Source of the DNA: a virus
Virus record (IMG/VR): IMGVR_UViG_3300042691_005556
Location: 1-21,886 of that record
Reading direction: 5' to 3' (one strand)
Length of the DNA: 21,886 nucleotides
The notes beneath the pieces were generated by a model, which saw only the letters and a program-made list of their open reading frames with translations, had not been told where the DNA came from and searched no databases. A program made the translations under genes and the position numbers. This document shows positions 2,025 to 20,414 of the stretch, piece after piece; the first letter of the stretch is position 1; the number at the start of each line of letters is the position of its first letter.

Positions 2025-2997
2025 ATAAATTAGTTACTAGCTCACCATCTTTCTCATAGACTTCTCTTTTATAGTCCCATACATCATTATCTAGATGCCA
2101 CTTAAGATCAGCTAGTATATCAAATAAACCTCTTACACCACCTTCTCCAGCAATACCCATCTTAGCTGATATATAATCATTGGTAGACATCTTCCAAATC
2201 AAAGGATTGTTTGGATATTCTACATTAATTACAATAAACTTAAATGGAGCTATGGTATAGTTTTGTATAAGATGTTCTTGAGCAAAAGCTGTACTAATAT
2301 AATGGCTATAGATAACTGCTTGAAGATCATATCTATATCTAGTCATGCTCTTTGCAAATCCATATGGGCTATCAGATGTAGTCTTGATATCTATAGGATA
2401 GATAGTTTGAGTATTGTGGTCCACAATAATACAATCAAGTTTAACTTTGTATTGTATTCCATCATGTTCAAATGTACTATCTTTTTGATAATACCTATCT
2501 ATATTCTCCCCTAGATTCTCAGCTAAGAATTTACTGGTAAATCTATTTGTTTTTAATATTTGTGCTGCTGCATTAGCTTTAGTATATTGCTCAAAGCTTA
2601 GGACTATTTTATCTCTACTAGATACTAGAAAGTCATAATAAGACTTACCTTCTGTAAGAAATCTTTCTTTGACTTTATCTATACTATCTCTTTTAAATCC
2701 TACAATACTATAAGCATCCTCTTCAGCATTCTCTACACCTTGAGATGTTAGTTTAAATAGCATATCTACATAATCTCCCATCTGTCCTGTAGGTCTATCT
2801 ACAGTAGCAACAGTAAATAAAGTATAAAAATCATCAGGTTGAGTAAGCAGACAATCTACTGCAGAACCTATGTTCATAGCATCACTTTCCTTCTCTTCTA
2901 TATCTTCCTTCAGAATATACTTTTTGTGGAATAAGAATGGACTTCTTTCAAATAATGCTAGCCTACTAAAGCTTAGTGGCTGAATGTCCATTGGCAT
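2005..2997 (-). CDS. PD-(D/E)XK nuclease, RecB/Cas4-like
   Basis: A DNA nuclease of the PD-(D/E)XK superfamily. Counting from the chosen ATG at 2997 (330 aa): an N-terminal helix with FSRLALFERSP, typical of RecB-family nucleases; a GSAVD helix near residues 44-48; Asp188; then the core Asp203-x-Lys205 in the strand PIDIKTT; and the supporting helix DLQAVIYSHY, whose Gln226 and Tyr230 match the QxxxY motif of RecB/Cas4 exonucleases. The frame is open to an ATG at 3039, but that start would overlap the upstream gene by 74 bases. The ATG at 2997 has GGAG nine bases upstream and an A-rich spacer, so I prefer it (3012 is also possible). The RusA-like neighbour suggests recombination or host-DNA degradation. 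No helicase domain is attached. Confidence 0.85.
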   Translation of the reverse strand: MPMDIQPLSFSRLALFERSPFLFHKKYILKEDIEEKESDAMNIGSAVDCLLTQPDDFYTLFTVATVDRPTGQMGDYVDMLFKLTSQGVENAEEDAYSIVGFKRDSIDKVKERFLTEGKSYYDFLVSSRDKIVLSFEQYTKANAAAQILKTNRFTSKFLAENLGENIDRYYQKDSTFEHDGIQYKVKLDCIIVDHNTQTIYPIDIKTTSDSPYGFAKSMTRYRYDLQAVIYSHYISTAFAQEHLIQNYTIAPFKFIVINVEYPNNPLIWKMSTNDYISAKMGIAGEGGVRGLFDILADLKWHLDNDVWDYKREVYEKDGELVTNLYDKTAF

Positions 2998-3271
2998 TTT
3001 TAACTTCTCCATCGAAGTAAAAGATTCTTCCTTCTGCATCTAATAATGATTTTTTATATAATTCAATTCTTTGTTTAATTTTCTCAACAGATGTACCTGG
3101 CTTAAAGTAGATAGTAGTTCTATCATCTACATTATAAGCTATCAGTTTACTTGTATCTGGTGATTGTTTAGCAAGTTCTTGTGCTTGCTCCCTCATACTG
3201 AGGTTATAATTTTTCATTGTGTTACCTGACCCAGTATCTTCTAGGTCTTTAGGTTTCTTTCTTTTACTCAT
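2966..3271 (-). CDS. Hypothetical protein (101 aa)
   Basis: A small protein with a basic start (SKRKKPK), a hydrophilic linker, a short beta-like segment around YNVDDRTTIYFKPG and a helix to residue ~78. I do not recognise a family. It ends in two consecutive TAG codons, showing that TAG is read as stop here. Its ATG overlaps the stop of the RusA-like gene in an ATGA arrangement, and its 3' end overlaps the nuclease gene by 32 bases or more. This points to coupled translation with those nucleases. Confidence 0.7.
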   Translation of the reverse strand: MSKRKKPKDLEDTGSGNTMKNYNLSMREQAQELAKQSPDTSKLIAYNVDDRTTIYFKPGTSVEKIKQRIELYKKSLLDAEGRIFYFDGEVKNANGHSATKL

Positions 3272-3708
3272 ACTCTTATTCTTAATATTACACCTGGATT
3301 TTCTTTATCCAACGAATAATTCCTTCCATCTACCTTCAGAACATAAGGAATAAAGTATCTCATGCTGTCATCTACTATGTAGTTATGAGCTACCAATAAG
3401 TCCTGTATGATTTGTGTAGCATTGTTAAAGTCAAAGTCTGCAGCAGTTCTCCTAATAAAGTGAAACCCTACTTCTATAGGGTAATGCTTTTCATGAAGCT
3501 TAGGGAATTTTATAAGAGCTGTACTAAATAAATTAGGTCTAGTCTTATAACCTTCCACTTGTTTATCTCTTACTGAATAGGATTTAATACCCATCTGCTG
3601 TAGATACTTTGTTACTGTCTTTGAAGGAAATATCCCTCTCTTAGTCTTTATTTTACTATTCTTAAGAGAGGGAACATTGTAAGGGATAAAAAATTCATAT
3701 GTTTTCAT
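3268..3708 (-). CDS. RusA-like Holliday-junction resolvase
   Basis: RusA-family dimeric endonucleases cleave four-way DNA junctions. Counting from the ATG at 3708 (146 aa): an N-terminal strand with PSLKNSK (residues ~13-19) resembling the P-x-SKN start of RusA; then DFDF with acidic Asp91 and Asp93 followed by Asn95-Asn96; Asp103; and the DDS pair Asp113-Asp114 followed by a strand. These match the D-x-D-N...D...DD layout of RusA. The lysine that follows DLDN in E. coli RusA does not appear conserved. The frame extends two codons further to a TTG, but the ATG at 3708 overlaps the upstream TAA by one base (TAATG) and is the better start. Confidence 0.82.
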   Translation of the reverse strand: MKTYEFFIPYNVPSLKNSKIKTKRGIFPSKTVTKYLQQMGIKSYSVRDKQVEGYKTRPNLFSTALIKFPKLHEKHYPIEVGFHFIRRTAADFDFNNATQIIQDLLVAHNYIVDDSMRYFIPYVLKVDGRNYSLDKENPGVILRIRV

Positions 3709-4586
3709 TACCAAGGCATTTCTATAGTTTCTGCTGGAGTTTCAGTTGTTTTATTAGCTTCCAACATAAGTCTATATTGGTCTTTATAATACTGATTCTC
3801 TTCTCTAGCAGAAGCAAATGTAGGAATTGTCGGAATTAAAAACAAATCTGCAAGTAAATTAGGTCTTGTTACTATCTCAACCTTATGCTCTTTAGCCCAA
3901 GGAATAATATATTTTCTATAAAAAGACCTAAGACTTTTCTCTTCTGTTTCTTTATAATCAAATCCTCCTTGAACATACAATACAAATGTATTATCTTCGT
4001 TAGTTATAGGTGTATTAGTTAGCCAAGATAATCTAGGCAATTGTACTAATTCTCTTTTAACCATTAGAGCTACAAAAGGTTTCAAAGTGCTATTTGTATT
4101 AACTCTACCTATAATACCACCACCTGTTACAAAAGTACCAGTTCTAGTACTTACTCTATAAGGAGCAATTCTATTAAAATTAAGTATAACATCAACATTA
4201 TTACCATATCCATAGTTGCAAACTAAATCAGATTGAGGTTCTAAAAATTTGTTAATATGTTCCCTAATCAAATCTTCACAAAAACTATCAGCTTTAATAT
4301 AACTAAGATCTACTTGTCCATCAAAATGAGATACAATTTGTCTAGCAGGAGCAGTTAAAAATTTAGCCAATCTATCATCATTAGGATCAAAAGCTTTACT
4401 TATTTCATTCATTACATAAGTAGTAGCAGTTACATATCCATGTACATACTGACCATAATTATTAGGAACAATACCTGCAAAAGAACAATACTCATTATTG
4501 TAATTAAGCTTATGCTTAATACTAGATGGGTGATTACTATTAAGTAAATATGATGATATATCTGTATTAATTAATCCATTTATCAT
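3708..4586 (-). CDS. Unrecognised 292-aa protein linked to the ubiquitin-like cassette
   Basis: I do not recognise a family. The protein seems soluble and mixed alpha/beta: an N-terminal region with NYGQYVHGYVTATTY, a helical middle with cysteines at about 34, 103 and 122, a Gly-rich turn (TGGGIIG) near residue 172, then strands and a long C-terminal helix ending in a Thr/Glu-rich tail. Its ATG overlaps the stop of the E1/ThiF-like gene by 4 bases, and its own stop overlaps the RusA-like gene by 1 base. Tight coupling to the E1-like gene suggests a partner such as an E3-like factor, adaptor or substrate, but no RING, HECT or other ligase signature is visible, so this is only contextual. Confidence 0.8.
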   Translation of the reverse strand: MINGLINTDISSYLLNSNHPSSIKHKLNYNNEYCSFAGIVPNNYGQYVHGYVTATTYVMNEISKAFDPNDDRLAKFLTAPARQIVSHFDGQVDLSYIKADSFCEDLIREHINKFLEPQSDLVCNYGYGNNVDVILNFNRIAPYRVSTRTGTFVTGGGIIGRVNTNSTLKPFVALMVKRELVQLPRLSWLTNTPITNEDNTFVLYVQGGFDYKETEEKSLRSFYRKYIIPWAKEHKVEIVTRPNLLADLFLIPTIPTFASAREENQYYKDQYRLMLEANKTTETPAETIEMPW

Positions 4587-5278
4587 AATTCAATTGTTTC
4601 AGTCATTGTAAATATATCATTATCTATCATAAATGGGAGTACTCTATCATCTCCTCCTGTAGCTATATTAGCACAAAAGTTAGTATAACATGCAATCATC
4701 TTAGATGCAATCATAAAACTATTGTGTGTAGTACCTTTAAAACCACAAGCTAATACTGCTGCTTCAGAATCATCAAATAAAGTCTTCTCATATCTCTCCA
4801 ATCTATGTGGAGTAACTATATAAATTTGAAACTGCTCAGCAGTTAATCTACCATCAATTAGTAAAGGCATAGGTATTTCTCCATTAGCTTCAGCATGGCT
4901 ATTTACACTTTGCTTAAATACTTCATACATAGCTTTCCTAGCTTTCATATTATCAAAGCAAGAAAAATATATATCATACTGTGGAGATTCTTCTGTAAAT
5001 AACTCTTGCTTAGTAGATACTTGATAGAGAGAATAGTCATTAATTATTCCTTTAATTGCAGATACTTTAGACTTACCATTATCATCTATAGAGTATAATT
5101 GATTGGACATATTAACTGTATCTACAGTATCTGGATCATAAATAGTGATAGACTCTGGCTCTAGTCTGGCTAATAAAAAAGCTAGACAAGAACCAATGCC
5201 ACCAGCACCACCTACTACAGTATAATGTTGCTTTACTATAGGCAACCATACTGCATCTTTAAATCTATCTGTTGCCAT
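4583..5278 (-). CDS. E1/ThiF-like ubiquitin-activating-type adenylyltransferase
   Basis: E1/ThiF/MoeB enzymes adenylate the C-terminus of ubiquitin-like proteins and may form a thioester. This 231-aa protein has the Rossmann ATP loop GGAGGIGS (23-30), the ribose-binding DPDTVD (48-53) with NMSNQ (56-60) and GKSK (68-71), which match the D-x-D-x-V...N-x-x-R/Q...G-x-x-K pattern, and DNMKAR (109-114), matching the conserved Asp-Asn...Arg after the third strand. Cys178 in ACGFKG lies in the region where the catalytic cysteine is expected. MoeB-type CxxC zinc pairs are absent. The protein is short (a single ThiF domain). It follows the JAB gene with a 2-base gap and overlaps the 292-aa gene. Activation of the ubiquitin-like protein at 7626-8033 is inferred. 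Confidence 0.9.
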   Translation of the reverse strand: MATDRFKDAVWLPIVKQHYTVVGGAGGIGSCLAFLLARLEPESITIYDPDTVDTVNMSNQLYSIDDNGKSKVSAIKGIINDYSLYQVSTKQELFTEESPQYDIYFSCFDNMKARKAMYEVFKQSVNSHAEANGEIPMPLLIDGRLTAEQFQIYIVTPHRLERYEKTLFDDSEAAVLACGFKGTTHNSFMIASKMIACYTNFCANIATGGDDRVLPFMIDNDIFTMTETIEL

Positions 5279-5280
5279 AA

Positions 5281-6468
5281 TTATAAGTAATGTGGTAAAA
5301 AGTCAGAATAATAATTAGCCAATTCAGTATATACAAGTTCTGCTACATCAGACTTTTCAAAGTTTGGATAGTTAAGAACTGTCTCCATAGCATCTTGTAT
5401 AAACTCTTGTGTATCACTGGTAATCATATAGTTAGATCCAGTAGCTGATAGATAATAGTCTTCTAGATTATCTGCCATCATAGCTGAATAGATTTCTTCA
5501 TCTATCTCTTTAATCTTAGAATCCATCTTCTCAAATGCACCTTTAATATCAGATATCTTAGTACTATTATCTAACATAATAAGCATACAGATAAAGTTAT
5601 TTATCTGATCTTGAGTATGTTTAGCTTTGTAAGACTTTGCATAAGATGGAGTATCAAACAAAGATGTTTGTCTAGTATCATTATACCAGTTGCTTTGATA
5701 TCTAGGAGTTTCAGGAAACTCTGTATTCATATAACCATAGTTTGTAACAGGTGGTTTATATGCTAGAATACCTTCTACTTGTTTATCAAAGAACTCATCA
5801 AACTCTAGAACTATCTTCATATCTATAGATTTGATAGATACTACTTCTTGCTCAGATGTTTCATCACTAGACATTACCCAGTTACCATCACCATCTTTAT
5901 AATGTACACCAGTGCTTGTTACTCTCTTACTTACAGGATAAGCAGCCTTAGCTATAATTTCACCCTTGTTATTAACAATCACAGATATACAGAAGTTAGA
6001 TAGCTTAGCATACTCATTCAAAGTAGAAGTATCTGTACCTGAAAAGAATACACCCATGTTAACATGAGAATGGATAATACCCATCTTACATTCTTCTAGC
6101 TCTGTATTATTATCATAAGCATCAATTAACCTATCATCTATCTCAAACTCAGTATATGTAGGCTCACCTTTATGCATAGGTAAAATATCTATAGCTCTAG
6201 CACTAAATGTTTCAGGATCTATAGGATGACCTTCAGTTTTACAAAAGATAATACCTGACCATTCTACAGTATTAATTCTCTTACAAAGATACCAGATCTT
6301 GCTTAAGATGTTCTGGGAAAGATACAGCTTGGAAACTTCTTGAGAGGAGCTGGTTTTTGTATCTTTCTTTGATTGAGTTGCATATGTGTTGGAAAATTTG
6401 AGGGTGGGGGAATTCTTCTTCAGATTCTTGTTGCCCTTCATATTGGACTTCATATTTAATTTCTTCAT
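5281..6468 (-). CDS. JAMM/JAB-domain metallopeptidase (deubiquitinase-like)
   Basis: A zinc isopeptidase of the Rpn11/RadC/JAB superfamily, expected to trim a ubiquitin-like precursor or remove it from targets. The full catalytic set is present in the 395-aa protein: Glu69 in VEWSGII, His133-x-His135, seven residues, Ser143 and Asp146 (HSHVNMGVFFSGTD). Residues 1-47 are a Lys/Asn/Ser/Thr-rich leader without clear fold; the JAB fold begins near residue 48 (LYLSQNILSKI). Residues ~205-395 form an extra, largely helical domain I do not recognise. The first 188 bases overlap the E2-like gene in another frame. There is no internal Met before the JAB helix, so a shorter ATG start would break the fold. 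The E1-like gene follows after 2 bases. Confidence 0.92.
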   Translation of the reverse strand: MKKLNMKSNMKGNKNLKKNSPTLKFSNTYATQSKKDTKTSSSQEVSKLYLSQNILSKIWYLCKRINTVEWSGIIFCKTEGHPIDPETFSARAIDILPMHKGEPTYTEFEIDDRLIDAYDNNTELEECKMGIIHSHVNMGVFFSGTDTSTLNEYAKLSNFCISVIVNNKGEIIAKAAYPVSKRVTSTGVHYKDGDGNWVMSSDETSEQEVVSIKSIDMKIVLEFDEFFDKQVEGILAYKPPVTNYGYMNTEFPETPRYQSNWYNDTRQTSLFDTPSYAKSYKAKHTQDQINNFICMLIMLDNSTKISDIKGAFEKMDSKIKEIDEEIYSAMMADNLEDYYLSATGSNYMITSDTQEFIQDAMETVLNYPNFEKSDVAELVYTELANYYSDFLPHYL

Positions 6469-7555
6469 TTCTAAATGTTTTAAATTCTATATATCTTTTA
6501 GCATTTTCAACTACCCCATCTATCAGCTCTTTATCTACTCTTTCTGCTTGGATAAGTTGATTATTACCAGTCATTATACCTTTAACTGTTGCATACTTAG
6601 CTACTTCTAGCATAAGTTCTCTTTCATTGAGAATATTTATTTCTAATTCTCCATTTACTATACTTGCATTTATGTTAGGTATAAATTCTGTTTCTTTAAA
6701 AAATTTCTTTTGACTAATACCTAGATCTGCATTAGTTACTGCAGAAGCACTAGCACTACCTGTACTATTAACTATAGTAGTAGTAGCCATTCTAATATAT
6801 GGTGTACCTTCAAGAGATTCCCATCTCACATAATTATCTAGATCATACAGGAATAGTTCAAGCTTTTCTAGATCTATCTTATCTCTAAGTTCTGACAATA
6901 CTGTTGTAAATCCTGTAGAGCCAGTACAAAAATTAGTAGCTCTAAATAAATCACCAGATCTTTTAGTATGTAAATGAGAATGAGCATAACCATGTTTATA
7001 GGCTTCTAAATCATATGTAGATCTAAAACCTTTAAACTCACTAACTACTACATCTTCTTCATCATTTATTGTAAAACTAATCAATACATATAGTCCACTA
7101 ATATCTCTAGTGTCTCTGTTAGTATTTATAATAGTAAATGTATCAAACCTAATTAGTAGGTTTAGATGGTTAGTTTCTTTATTAAATTGTAGATCATAGT
7201 TATTTGGATAGATAGCATCTAGTATAGGAACAATAGAATTTACAAAGTTTATATATGTTTTTGCATAATGATAATCTAAAGCAATTCCTATTTCTTTAAG
7301 AAACTCTTCTTTATTATCTACTACAAATACACTATCATTATCTCCACAACTTTCATACTTATAGATTTCTTTATTTGATTTTATTACAAATTGACTTACT
7401 GAATAATAGTCATTATCATCACCTTCTGCTACTAAGTTTGTTAGTTGATCTAAATTTTCTAGTTGTTGCAGCCATCTAAAATTGTACTTTTCTCTTACAG
7501 CAAAAGGAGATGGTTGTTCTTGTATGTTGGAATATTTTAATTGAAATTCTGTCAT
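6281..7555 (-). CDS. Candidate E2-like ubiquitin-conjugating protein
   Basis: A 424-aa protein with no family I can name with certainty. Residues ~119-215 resemble a UBC/E2 fold: successive strands (DLQFN, LNLLIRFDTF, LYVLISFTI, VVVSEFKGF) and then AHSHLHT (His192, His194, His196), a short Gly turn and FCTGS with Cys210. In many E2 and bacterial E2-like proteins an HPN/HPH element precedes the catalytic Cys by ~10-17 residues, with a strand meander before it, so Cys210 is the predicted thioester cysteine. The N-terminal ~115 and C-terminal ~190 residues are unassigned. The gene starts 16 bases after a terminator and overlaps the JAB gene by 188 bases. The E1- and JAB-like neighbours strongly support the call. 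Confidence 0.65.
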   Translation of the reverse strand: MTEFQLKYSNIQEQPSPFAVREKYNFRWLQQLENLDQLTNLVAEGDDNDYYSVSQFVIKSNKEIYKYESCGDNDSVFVVDNKEEFLKEIGIALDYHYAKTYINFVNSIVPILDAIYPNNYDLQFNKETNHLNLLIRFDTFTIINTNRDTRDISGLYVLISFTINDEEDVVVSEFKGFRSTYDLEAYKHGYAHSHLHTKRSGDLFRATNFCTGSTGFTTVLSELRDKIDLEKLELFLYDLDNYVRWESLEGTPYIRMATTTIVNSTGSASASAVTNADLGISQKKFFKETEFIPNINASIVNGELEINILNERELMLEVAKYATVKGIMTGNNQLIQAERVDKELIDGVVENAKRYIEFKTFRNEEIKYEVQYEGQQESEEEFPHPQIFQHICNSIKERYKNQLLSRSFQAVSFPEHLKQDLVSL

Positions 7556-7571
7556 ATTATTAATTTTAAAT

Positions 7572-7604
7572 AAAATAGGGAGCCTGATATAGACTCCCTA
7601 TTTT
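7572..7604 (-). terminator. Intrinsic terminator between the ubiquitin-like gene and the E2-like gene
   Basis: A perfect 11-bp stem (AAAATAGGGAG with CTCCCTATTTT) with an 11-base loop, followed on the minus-strand transcript by ATTTAAAA. It lies 21 bases after the ubiquitin-like stop and its base is only 16 bases before the E2-like ATG. There is little room for a promoter between them, so the E2-JAB-E1 genes are probably reached by read-through or by a promoter inside the preceding gene. Confidence 0.88.
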
Positions 7605-7625
7605 TGTTACCAACCCCAGAAATTA

Positions 7626-8033
7626 TTAGATAAGACCTTCTTCTTCTAACTCATTAAGAGCATCTAAGTCATCTTCACTTAGTCCTTCAGAAAGTTTTTC
7701 TTCACAATTTTCATTTAACAAATCTTCAAAGATGTTGTTAAGTTTAGTTTGCATATCACGCAATACAGCATCTTTGTAGCGTGTAGTATTAAAAGGATTC
7801 TCAGTACCTGAAGCAATCTTCTTCATGCTTAGGATGATAGTAAAATCACCTGTAGGAAGAACTGCATCAGCAGCTTCTAGAGTTACTCTAGTATCTCTAA
7901 CAATAGCTTTCATATCAGATACTCCTGAGAAATGATTAGCTAATTCATTTTTAAGATCACCCCAGTTAGTAGCTGAAGATTGAATAGTTTTAGCACTATT
8001 AGTCTGTGAAGAAATAACACGAATGTTACGCAT
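7626..8033 (-). CDS. Ubiquitin-like beta-grasp protein with C-terminal extension
   Basis: A 135-aa protein whose first ~76 residues fit a beta-grasp ubiquitin/ThiS/MoaD fold: strand (NIRVIS, 3-8), second strand (KTIQS), helix starting WGDLKNELANHF (24-35), strands MKAIVRDT and VTLEA, then ALPTGDFTIILSMKK, the hallmark loop (L-P-x-G-D) and last strand. The body ends KKIASG at residues 71-76 rather than a terminal Gly-Gly, and ~59 further residues form an acidic, helical tail ending EEEGLI. A JAB peptidase encoded next to it could remove the tail. It starts 11 bases after the primase stop and is followed by a strong terminator. Arginines 2, 5, 87 and 92 use CGT/CGC, rare among its AGA-using neighbours, which suggests high expression. 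The fold call is from pattern, not a search. Confidence 0.72.
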   Translation of the reverse strand: MRNIRVISSQTNSAKTIQSSATNWGDLKNELANHFSGVSDMKAIVRDTRVTLEAADAVLPTGDFTIILSMKKIASGTENPFNTTRYKDAVLRDMQTKLNNIFEDLLNENCEEKLSEGLSEDDLDALNELEEEGLI

Positions 8034-8044
8034 AATTTTAAATT

Positions 8045-9064
8045 TTAGTTGTTATTAATTAAATTGTTTAAGTGGACAATTGCTTCTTCTTTACCATGAT
8101 CTTTCACTAGGTCAGAGAAGTCTTTTGATTTATAGAGATCTGCTATCTCTATTTGTGTTAGGTTAAATCTCTGTGCTATCTCAGCACCATATTTTCTACC
8201 CCAATTTGTTTCTTTGTTAAAGTCATTGTCATATAGAAGATACACTTTATCAAACCTGCTTTTGAGTTGATCTATTATATGTGGCTTTGGATCAGTTGTT
8301 TCTGCTTGCATAGCCACTGCAGGTATTCCCAGTAATTCTGTTATAGCCATAACATCCTTCAAAGATTTAGTGATGATGAGCTTATCACCTCTATCTGGCA
8401 TCTGTGTCCAACCTTGCCAAACAGATTTATCTACATTAGATATAAATCTATGTTCTTTGTTAAATGGCTGATATATCTTGTATGTGTACTTACCATCTTT
8501 AGATTCTAGATATGCATAAGCTGGACTAACTAGGTTATTAACTACAAGAATCTTCTCATTAATAAATATATGTGTACAACTGTATACATTATATTTGTTG
8601 AGAGTCTTTGTAGTAATACCAAAGTCTTTCCAAAACTTAGTATCTCTAGTAGTAAAATCCTGATACTTTATACCAAGATGTACTTCTCTTGCTTGCTTAT
8701 AGTCTATGTTCTTTGGTAAAGTTCTTTTCTTCTGATCTGCACTTATTCCTACTGCTGTAATTCCAAAGTCATAGGCTATTCTTTGCAAAGCCTGGTAATA
8801 ATCTATATTAAATAATTTAGAAACAAAAACAAAACAATCTCCCTTCTCTTTAGTAGCAAAATCTGTAAATAGAAGCTTACCTATGTTAGAAGCATAGAAT
8901 ACACTAAATGAAGGTACTCCATCTTCTCTCAAAGGACTACACATAGCTGTATTAAGTTCCAACTCTGGAATATAATAAGCAAAAATCTGATAGTCTGATA
9001 CTTTTCTTAGTATCATCTCATCAGATAACCTGTACTCTAGCTCTATGTTATTAAGATTTATCAT
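8045..9064 (-). CDS. DNA primase, DnaG/TOPRIM type with degenerate zinc domain
   Basis: Makes RNA primers for phage DNA replication. The 339-aa protein starts with a CHC2-like region (CSPLREDGVPSF, 42-53, then KGDCFVFVSKL), but of the usual Cys-His-Cys-Cys zinc ligands only cysteines 42 and 77 remain. The TOPRIM core has TKSLKD (232-237) in place of the usual E-G-x-x-D, with a Glu nearby in QAE (253-255), and the metal-binding DND (279-281) after a hydrophobic strand. This TKS-type TOPRIM layout occurs in other phage primases. No helicase domain is fused; the DnaB-like helicase is separate at 11012-12112. The ATG lies 8 bases after a terminator hairpin. The ubiquitin-like gene follows 11 bases downstream. 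Confidence 0.87.
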   Translation of the reverse strand: MINLNNIELEYRLSDEMILRKVSDYQIFAYYIPELELNTAMCSPLREDGVPSFSVFYASNIGKLLFTDFATKEKGDCFVFVSKLFNIDYYQALQRIAYDFGITAVGISADQKKRTLPKNIDYKQAREVHLGIKYQDFTTRDTKFWKDFGITTKTLNKYNVYSCTHIFINEKILVVNNLVSPAYAYLESKDGKYTYKIYQPFNKEHRFISNVDKSVWQGWTQMPDRGDKLIITKSLKDVMAITELLGIPAVAMQAETTDPKPHIIDQLKSRFDKVYLLYDNDFNKETNWGRKYGAEIAQRFNLTQIEIADLYKSKDFSDLVKDHGKEEAIVHLNNLINNN

Positions 9065-9072
9065 AAATAAAA

Positions 9073-9090
9073 GGGGCTATTGCTAGCCCC
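9073..9090 (-). terminator. Intrinsic terminator with GCAA tetraloop before primase
   Basis: A 7-bp stem (GGGGCTA with TAGCCCC) closed on the minus-strand RNA by GCAA, a GNRA tetraloop, followed by TTTTATTT. It lies 20 bases after the stop of the SSB-like gene and 8 bases before the primase ATG. Besides terminating, the hairpin could limit ribosome access to the primase start on read-through RNA. Confidence 0.87.
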
Positions 9091-9110
9091 CATTATTAAA
9101 CACACACAAA

Positions 9111-9677
9111 TTAGATTACATCAGATGCTGCAGCAGAAGCAACAACCATAGGTTTGTCTTCTTCTAGCCTAGTCATCTGATCTATTTGACTTGCTCTAAG
9201 TCTAGTATCTCCTACAGGGATAATCTCATTCTCAATGAATGGGACATAACTTCTGATTTGGATATACTTCTTAGGTGCCATTGTAGAACCATAAGTACAA
9301 TATACACGCACTAGAACAGTTGTAAATTTAGGAGCAATCAATTTAATACATCCATCAAGTAAATCTTTTACTGATGCAAATGCAGGAATTTGATAATCTG
9401 CACCCAAATAACAATGGATCAAATGCTTCAATACTTTACCTTGTTTCTCTAGATCTTTAGCAAAGGTATCTTTAGTTGTATCTAAATACCAGAAAGCCAT
9501 ATTAACCTCAGCACCATTGCTATCCTTAAAGAATAGTTTATAGTCTGGGCCATTACCAGTATCTTGCTTAGATTCAATCTTAGAACCTATTACATTTCTT
9601 GCAATACCTGCTTTTCCATCATTGAAAATTTGCACATTGCTGCTGCCATTATAGGCACTGTCATTTAAGTTAATCAT
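9111..9677 (-). CDS. Putative single-stranded-DNA-binding protein (188 aa)
   Basis: Assignment is tentative. The protein is beta-rich, with alternating strands around KLFFKDSNGAEVNMAFWYLD (54-73) and TVLVRVYCTY...KKYIQIRSYVPFIE (~119-148), compatible with an OB-like fold with exposed aromatic residues, and an acidic segment (RLEEDK) near the end that could be a protein-interaction tail, followed by an Ala/Ser-rich stretch. It sits between primase and the Sak4-like ATPase, where phage SSB genes often occur, and is followed by a strong terminator as expected for an abundant protein. Its leader shares AGCAAGTATG with the next upstream gene (9691-9948). An unrelated structural role cannot be excluded. 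Confidence 0.55.
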   Translation of the reverse strand: MINLNDSAYNGSSNVQIFNDGKAGIARNVIGSKIESKQDTGNGPDYKLFFKDSNGAEVNMAFWYLDTTKDTFAKDLEKQGKVLKHLIHCYLGADYQIPAFASVKDLLDGCIKLIAPKFTTVLVRVYCTYGSTMAPKKYIQIRSYVPFIENEIIPVGDTRLRASQIDQMTRLEEDKPMVVASAAASDVI

Positions 9678-9690
9678 ACTTGCTTATTTA

Positions 9691-9948
9691 TTAGTTGTTT
9701 GTTAATTCATGTAAAGGTAATTGTTCTTGTACTAATTTATCAGGATCTGTGAACACAAAGTTAGGTTCAGATCTCTTGATGTTTCTAGTTTGTATTCCTC
9801 TTTCTCTTAATAACTTAGCTACATCATCACCTGAACAGTTGATGTTATATCTCTCATTAAGATTCTCAGAAATTTGATCTGCTGACATTCCATCTAGGAC
9901 ATACCAAATCTTCAGATCTCTTGTGCTAATTGCTACATTCTTTGTCAT
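9691..9948 (-). CDS. Small HTH-like protein (85 aa)
   Basis: Residues ~9-53 look like a helix-turn-helix: STRDLKIWYVLDGMSADQI, a turn, then VAKLLRERGIQTRN, similar to resolvase or MerR-type recognition helices in phage HTH proteins. The C-terminal third is a flexible, acidic tail. I see no catalytic motif. The ATG is preceded by AAAGCAAGT, almost the same leader as the SSB-like gene 13 bases downstream of its stop, suggesting shared translation control. It probably binds DNA; target and role are unknown. Confidence 0.65.
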   Translation of the reverse strand: MTKNVAISTRDLKIWYVLDGMSADQISENLNERYNINCSGDDVAKLLRERGIQTRNIKRSEPNFVFTDPDKLVQEQLPLHELTNN

Positions 9949-19547: not shown

Positions 19548-20414
19548 TTAAAATATATATCTTATTGTATTCCAAGGTATTATATTACTATGAAGATACT
19601 TAAATTCTTCAATATATTCACCTTTTAATCCATGTTTATATCTAATATTAGTACCACCATATTGTGATATTTTATCTTCTTGTAAATCTGGTTTCCATAA
19701 TAAATCTTCACCTGTTAAATTGTTTTTTAGATTGTATAGGTGTTTATCTTTATTATGTGTTAAGAATATTACTTCAGCTTTGACAGCATCTGTATCCCAA
19801 GCATAAGTTCTTGCATTGTATTGTACAACCTCAAATAATTCTTTATACTTATCTAACCAATTATCATGTACAATAACAGGACTAAAGTTAAGATGAACTT
19901 CATAACCAGCGTCTATAAATTTTTCTACAGCTATTAATCTTTCATAAATAGTATTTGTATTAGGTTCTAAAACTTGTCTATACTCTTCAGGCATTAGACT
20001 AAATCTTATTCTAATTTTTTCATGCGGATTAAACTGTAGTAAATCTTTATTTACATACTTGGTAGCAAATGAACCCATAGCTATTGGATGATCTTTAAAA
20101 AATTGAAATATCTTTTGCCACTCGTGATATTTAGCATGTAAAGCAAAGTCTTCATTACAAGATATGTCATAAGTTATGTACTTCTCATGTGTTTGATTAG
20201 GCTTATCATCCACAGCAAACATTGCATGATTGTTAATTTCTGTTAAAATATCATTAGTATTAGTGGCTATATCTAAACCTACTGCTTTATGTCTTTTCAT
20301 ATAGCAGTAGGTACAGTTATATAGACAACCATAGCCAAAACTAGGACTAATGTAGTCTGTAGATCTACCTGATGGTCTAATGACCATAGATTTTCTAGTT
20401 AATGTTTCTATCAT
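19548..20414 (-). CDS. Radical SAM protein, spore-photoproduct-lyase-like
   Basis: The radical SAM motif C-x3-C-x2-C is Cys30, Cys34, Cys37 (GCLYNCTYCYMKR), which binds a 4Fe-4S cluster and S-adenosylmethionine. The pre-motif SPSFGYG and the later HLNFSPVIVHDNW (~194-206) resemble spore photoproduct lyase (SplB), which directly reverses 5-thyminyl-5,6-dihydrothymine. Cys86 in DISCNED lies 49 residues after the last cluster Cys; in B. subtilis SplB the essential hydrogen-donor Cys is 44 residues after, so Cys86 may be its equivalent. At 288 aa it is shorter than typical SplB at its N-terminus. It starts immediately after the stop of the upstream gene. UV-lesion repair of phage DNA is inferred. 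Confidence 0.8.
   Translation of the reverse strand: MIETLTRKSMVIRPSGRSTDYISPSFGYGCLYNCTYCYMKRHKAVGLDIATNTNDILTEINNHAMFAVDDKPNQTHEKYITYDISCNEDFALHAKYHEWQKIFQFFKDHPIAMGSFATKYVNKDLLQFNPHEKIRIRFSLMPEEYRQVLEPNTNTIYERLIAVEKFIDAGYEVHLNFSPVIVHDNWLDKYKELFEVVQYNARTYAWDTDAVKAEVIFLTHNKDKHLYNLKNNLTGEDLLWKPDLQEDKISQYGGTNIRYKHGLKGEYIEEFKYLHSNIIPWNTIRYIF

Follow-up and report, generated by a model that had tools for sequence, protein, structure and literature searches.

A PRTRC-like cassette in crAss-like phages predicted to conjugate a ubiquitin-like protein through a divergent E2-like family

The stretch of DNA analyzed here, referred to as the window, is a virus record of 21.9 kb (21,886 nt; IMGVR_UViG_3300042691_005556, positions 1-21,886). 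Its genes include those for a UDG, a PD-(D/E)XK nuclease, a RusA-like resolvase, a primase, DnaB, a helicase and a family A polymerase. Gene content and order are those of crAss-like phages and resemble the gp69-gp88 region of crAss001; the source virus is a bacterial virus and a relative of the abundant crAss-like phages of the gut. The window also carries genes for a ubiquitin-like protein (Ubl), an E2-like protein, a JAB/JAMM protease and an E1-like enzyme, followed by a fifth gene:

3708..4586, minus strand: fifth gene, crAss001 gp75-like, assigned by synteny
4583..5278, minus strand: ThiF/E1-like activating enzyme, 231 aa (Pfam ThiF, 1.1e-17)
4745-4747, minus strand: codon of E1 Cys178, invariant among 89 relatives
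5281..6468, minus strand: JAB/JAMM protease, 395 aa (motif E69, H133-S-H135, S143, D146)
6281..6468, minus strand: 188-nt overlap, in different frames, of the 3' end of the E2-like gene and the 5' end of the JAB gene (from ORF coordinates)
6281..7555, minus strand: E2-like protein, 424 aa (ORF, conservation, AlphaFold model, structural matches)
6770-7312, minus strand: predicted UBC-like core, about residues 82-262
6800-6820, minus strand: E246-S247...G250..P252, invariant in homologues
6926-6928, minus strand: Cys210 codon, invariant in homologues
6974-6976, minus strand: His194 codon, invariant in homologues
7626..8033, minus strand: Ubl precursor, 135 aa (fold model, invariant Gly76)
7806-7808, minus strand: Ubl Gly76 codon
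7806-8033, minus strand: Ubl domain, residues 1-76, ending in Ser75-Gly76
Residues 77-135 of the Ubl precursor, minus strand: C-terminal tail

The order Ubl-E2-JAB-E1 on one strand was found in 106/106 complete four-gene loci, a count that includes duplicates of one virus, and in the phages inspected the cassette is flanked by replication and recombination genes. Of 114 loci, 110 have overlapping E2-like and JAB reading frames, with a median overlap of 68 nt; the E2-like stop lies at or past codon 58 of the JAB gene in 19 of 86, among them the window. Both counts use predicted JAB starts. The gp75-like gene is poorly conserved (14-22% identity) and is the usual downstream neighbor of E1 in crAss001-like loci. 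Homing-type endonuclease genes were repeatedly seen in or beside the operon: a LAGLIDADG gene lies within the JAB gene of Fpv1 (L002:8649-9398), an HNH gene separates the Ubl gene from a tail ORF in cr106_1 (L006:5655-6170), and another HNH gene sits directly upstream of the Ubl gene in cr112_1 (L008:5326-5874).

An earlier note, made from the letters of the window, had proposed that the 424-aa product of 6281-7555 is a divergent E2 with an HxHxH...C active-site signature. The reading frame is real and lies on the minus strand, which the note had left unsaid, and its translation does read HSHLH over residues 192-196, with Cys210 inside FCTGS (209-213). Comparison with Pfam, NCBIfam and PDB sequence profiles returned no relative and no link to any E2 family, and a viral scan with the single sequence likewise gave no matches. 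The protein does match phrog_15310 (E 2.7e-17), which is annotated as unknown function, and tblastn found relatives in 70 phage records comprising Flavobacterium Fpv phages, Steigviridae including crAss001, and one Dulem virus. The crAss001 counterpart is gp78, those of the E1 and the Ubl being gp76 and gp79, and the relatives, where annotated, are labeled 'hypothetical protein'. The earlier note had picked out one member of a widespread phage family, and had missed both the family and the PRTRC-like cassette in which it occurs. To gather homologues we used an alignment of the neighboring, better conserved E1 as bait (158 viral contigs found, 80 kept) together with a Steigviridae-only alignment. 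The E2-like protein was recognized in 120 of 123 sequences, window included; in the other three the locus starts just upstream of E1.

Conservation was assessed in 90 distinct homologues, most of them only about 15-30% identical to the window protein. Cys210, His194, Gly212, Glu246, Ser247, Gly250 and Pro252 are identical in 90/90, which, judged from the alignment, is more than chance. Ser193 is kept in 89/90. Every other Cys column is common to at most 32 of the 90 homologues. The three histidines of the supposed HxHxH signature behaved differently from one another: His194 is invariant, but position 192 carries His in 82 of 90 homologues and F or Y in the rest, and position 196 carries His in just six. 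Since His196 is not conserved, an HxHxH metal site was rejected. With Cys210 invariant, no rival Cys column and His196 rare, the prediction of a catalytic cysteine survives and that of an HxHxH motif fails. His194 and Cys210 are separated by 8-27 positions (mode 16), and the true E2-like signature, as read from these sequences, is (H)SH-x(7-26)-CxG. Canonical E2s carry an HPN motif about 8-10 residues ahead of the Cys, with its Asn at about 8 positions; among the 90 homologues there is no invariant Asn near Cys210 and the HPN motif is absent. UFC1 and PRTRC-B also lack this motif, so that HPN is not universal among E2s. For the ES..G.P motif we know of no counterpart in canonical E2s.

An AlphaFold model built with 75 sequences has an overall pLDDT of 77.6, with values mostly above 90 over residues 101-250 and below 50 for residues 12-60. 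In its topology a helix at 82-115 leads into four strands (120-182); a loop (188-214) that carries both H194 and C210 comes next, followed by helices at 215-225 and 229-244. The four consecutive strands that the earlier note had placed ahead of the cysteine are therefore present in the model, as are the helix and meander of a UBC layout. Database comparison of the model was less uniform. Foldseek against the PDB gave no significant match (best E 0.13), although UFC1 accounted for 15 of the top 50 of these non-significant rows. With a second structural aligner, E2/UEV domains made up 45 of the 50 best PDB rows with moderate scores (Z 4.8-6.4), the remaining five being chains from Mediator, RQC and CCAN complexes. 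Some of these complexes hold RWD domains, which are related to the UBC fold. In BFVD, crAss-like relatives with no assigned function are among the matches whose E is below 1e-3. The evidence is consistent and the scores are middling; the predicted fold is most likely UBC, a reading made convincing by the operon context. The protein is most likely the conjugating enzyme of the cassette, too distant for recognition by the databases. The earlier suggestion that its flanks supply E3-like target selection found no support: residues 12-60 are the poorly modeled ones just mentioned, and toward the C-terminus, from about 290 to 410, the model is fairly good and the sequence partly conserved.

The first gene of the cassette encodes a domain that resembles ubiquitin in its predicted fold. 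The Ubl domain was modeled with a pLDDT of 87 and a beta-beta-alpha-beta-beta layout, and superimposed on ubiquitin (1ubq) over 70 residues at 2.0 A (Z 9.4), with a TM of about 0.7 to both ubiquitin and ISG15. The sequence profile gave no convincing Ubl match in the PDB, whereas the predicted fold did. Gly76 is invariant (91/91), preceded by Ser in 82. Beyond it, the tails of relatives range from 1 to 252 residues. In six distinct loci (L006, L030, L042, L069, L074 and L081) Ubl and tail are separate ORFs: the Ubl ends 1-5 residues past the invariant (S/A)G and a small separate ORF follows, which in L030 and L042 comes directly after the Ubl with a TAATG overlap. The separate tail ORF of cr106_1 (L006) is homologous to fused tails (E 1.6e-17). 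For L030 and L042 there is a weak alignment (E 0.003-0.007) of the separate ORF to a fused tail, and it begins at the residue just past the SG of the latter. Gene fission at the predicted processing point lends independent support to cleavage after Gly76. By a loose pattern, 34 of 85 tails (for example in L005, L007, L047 and L056) end in a motif like SxxEIxxMFxF, which is perhaps a docking peptide.

The match of the JAB protein to Pfam Prok-JAB (3.1e-5, 24.3 bits) falls slightly short of the curated cut-off of 25, and the protein gives weak profile matches to JAMM1, CSN5 and RPN11; its JAMM motif is retained in at least 84 of 86 relatives. In the E1-like protein the nucleotide site GxGGIGS...D48xD50...N56...Q60...K71...D109 is kept among the 89 relatives. 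UBA5 is its best solved relative by profile (6.5e-13), and it also matches the ThiF/MoeB sulfur-carrier adenylyltransferases. A plasmid search with the window E1 gave a single match, within a PRTRC locus, and the genome scan gave three MAG contigs only.

PRTRC plasmid systems, operon class 6d of Iyer et al. 2006 (PMC1779556), contain a Ubl (protein C), an E2-like protein of the Prok-E2_D type (protein B), a JAB (protein A) and a ThiF E1 (PMC1779556). Their loci are ordered E, C (Ubl), F, B (E2), A (JAB), ThiF, and the phage cassette has predicted counterparts of the four activities and keeps their relative order, C-(F)-B-A-ThiF. The phage E1 is homologous to PRTRC ThiF (hhalign, 98.7%), the phage JAB is related more weakly to protein A (hhalign, 90.8%), a CxG surrounds the active Cys of both E2s, and the Gly at the end of the Ubl is conserved. 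The differences are that the phage cassette lies within a phage replication module, that its E2 is about 424 aa long and has HSH instead of the PxxN of PRTRC-B, and that its Ubl has a long tail. Profile comparison gave no relation between the phage Ubl and PRTRC-C, and the E2-like protein had no match to Prok-E2_D (PF14460) or PRTRC_B (TIGR03737) at E values up to 1. Aligned with nine PRTRC-B proteins by hhalign, it scored P 0.008 (probability 4.9%) with Cys on Cys, the best of 11 profiles plus reversed controls; as a profile relation this is suggestive and not proof. The phage E1 reached 3.4e-10 against TIGR03736 (PRTRC_ThiF) but 39.7 bits, below the cut-off of 144.75. PRTRC-F showed no relation to the E2-like or gp75-like (G5) families, and among the ten ORFs of 2966-9948 in this fragment record there was no profile match to PRTRC E, F or ParB-family proteins. 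The cassette would work like PRTRC and shares its order, yet it is not classed as a member, and its E2 is unrecognized by the PRTRC-B models.

Other systems resemble the cassette in part. The UFM1 cascade (UBA5, UFC1) contributes the closest solved E1 relative by profile and an E2 without HPN (the title of a UFC1 structure entry states that a TAK motif replaces it). On the other hand, no E2 sequence relation was found and no UFL1-like E3 was seen, so the working parts are alike and there is no membership. CBASS (Cap2/Cap3), Bub and Bil are likewise prokaryotic Ubl-type conjugation systems with an E1, an E2 and a JAMM protease, and the phage E1 domain weakly matches Cap2 and Citrobacter BubCD. 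These are host defense systems with partly fused E1-E2 proteins and no phage replication context. Using PADLOC (2023 library, in which Bil/Bub models are unconfirmed), only the E1 domain matched, to E1-E2 models; these are generic E1 domain matches, and on this library an assignment to a known defense system is not favored. In tail assembly of the lambda/T1 type, a Ubl (TAPI) is paired with a JAB (TAPK) (PMC1779556). TAPI is also a phage-encoded Ubl with a conserved Gly, a C-terminal extension and a JAB partner, but no E1 or E2 is described there and the setting is tail assembly, not a replication module (PMC1779556).

Three other explanations of the E2-like protein and its neighbors were weighed. 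The cassette might be a sulfur-carrier system in the style of ThiS/MoaD/CysO, with the E1 making a Ubl acyl-adenylate or thiocarboxylate, the JAB releasing the Ubl and the E2-like protein serving as a Cys acceptor or sulfur-transfer enzyme. Such a role would suit the ThiF/MoeB matches of the E1, and Ubl, E1 and JAB do co-occur in sulfur-assimilation operons (PMC1779556). However, in the phage operons inspected no sulfur-metabolism gene was present among the annotated neighbors, the partner that always accompanies the set is a Cys protein with a UBC-like model, and a related E1 and JAB occur in PRTRC loci, where E2s are present; we consider this explanation unlikely. We would give equally little credit to a UBC-like fold in which C210, H194 and E246 form the Cys-His-Glu site of an acyltransferase or hydrolase; the protein might then transfer or remove the Ubl alone, for instance, and would not act as a classical E2. 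Each of the three residues is invariant in 90/90, no HPN Asn is present, and canonical E2s have no known equivalent of the ES..G.P motif, but a hydrolase is already supplied by the JAMM protein, the gene lies between Ubl and JAB near the place of the PRTRC E2 (protein B), and the structural matches are E2/UEV.

Less probable than either is descent of the E2-like protein from the neighboring protease as a diverged JAB paralogue, its HSH being akin to the JAMM HSH. GYAHSH does resemble the GIIHSH of the JAB, and the JAB comparison was second-best of the 11 profile comparisons (P 0.036). Yet the JAMM Ser and Asp are missing, the invariant Cys and the CxG have no JAB counterpart, and the model matches are UBC-like, not JAB-like; a degenerate JAB paralogue was rejected on the UBC-like matches and the absent Ser and Asp. 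With Cys210 invariant, a UBC-like model and an operon that also holds genes for a Ubl, an E1 and a JAMM protease, the earlier proposal of a divergent E2 is supported; neither of the two outcomes that the earlier note had named as refuting it, a non-conserved Cys210 or a model lacking the UBC meander, was observed. It is likely, in our judgment, that this protein serves as the E2-like carrier in a Ubl conjugation cassette encoded by the phage, and the best reading of the whole is a phage-borne, PRTRC-like Ubl conjugation set with a new divergent E2 family.

The analysis shows which genes occur together, how their products are predicted to fold, and that Gly76 and the catalytic positions never vary; the chemical steps, the target and the biological role are what we infer. 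The JAMM protease would cut the Ubl precursor behind Ser75-Gly76, which would set the tail free and leave Gly76 exposed. The ThiF-like E1 would then adenylate Gly76 and probably carry the Ubl as a thioester on Cys178, from which it could move to Cys210 of the E2-like protein, again as a thioester. Cys210 would pass the Ubl on, with an amine of a phage or host protein as the most likely acceptor, and the same JAMM protease may take it off again. The location of the cassette among replication and recombination genes, together with the homing endonuclease insertions, makes replication proteins a sensible first guess at its targets, but nothing stronger than that. A further and more doubtful idea is that crAss-like phages modify their replication machinery in the manner of SUMO or ubiquitin, and that the JAMM cut of a two-in-one precursor yields a modifier ready for activation and, as a separate product, a functional tail protein, like the eukaryotic ubiquitin-ribosomal protein fusions.

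Ubl conjugation in bacteria is known mainly from anti-phage defense and from uncharacterized plasmid loci, and here, as predicted from its genes, a phage itself encodes the full Ubl-E1-E2-JAMM set. A literature search, with subscription papers and preprints outside its scope, found no report of Ubl conjugation encoded by crAss-like phages. An E2-like family without the HPN motif would broaden the known range of E2s, and the precursor of Ubl and tail, whose gene has split at the predicted processing site in some loci, would be a prokaryotic parallel to ubiquitin fusion proteins. The cassette is also present in the cultured phages crAss001, DAC15, PhiCrAssBcn and Fpv, where its genes are labeled 'hypothetical protein', 'metalloprotease' or 'thiamine biosynthesis', so the pathway and its targets are directly testable in a laboratory phage-host pair.

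Two further observations were made on phage genes. In the 229-kb Xanthomonas phage PhiXhv-16 (L135), a ThiF gene (5935-6618) adjoins topoisomerase genes, and Pfam recognized no JAB or E2 among the five neighbors tested. In the window, positions 19548-20414 (minus strand) encode a radical-SAM protein that matches spore photoproduct lyase (PF20903, 1.3e-21), here in a phage.
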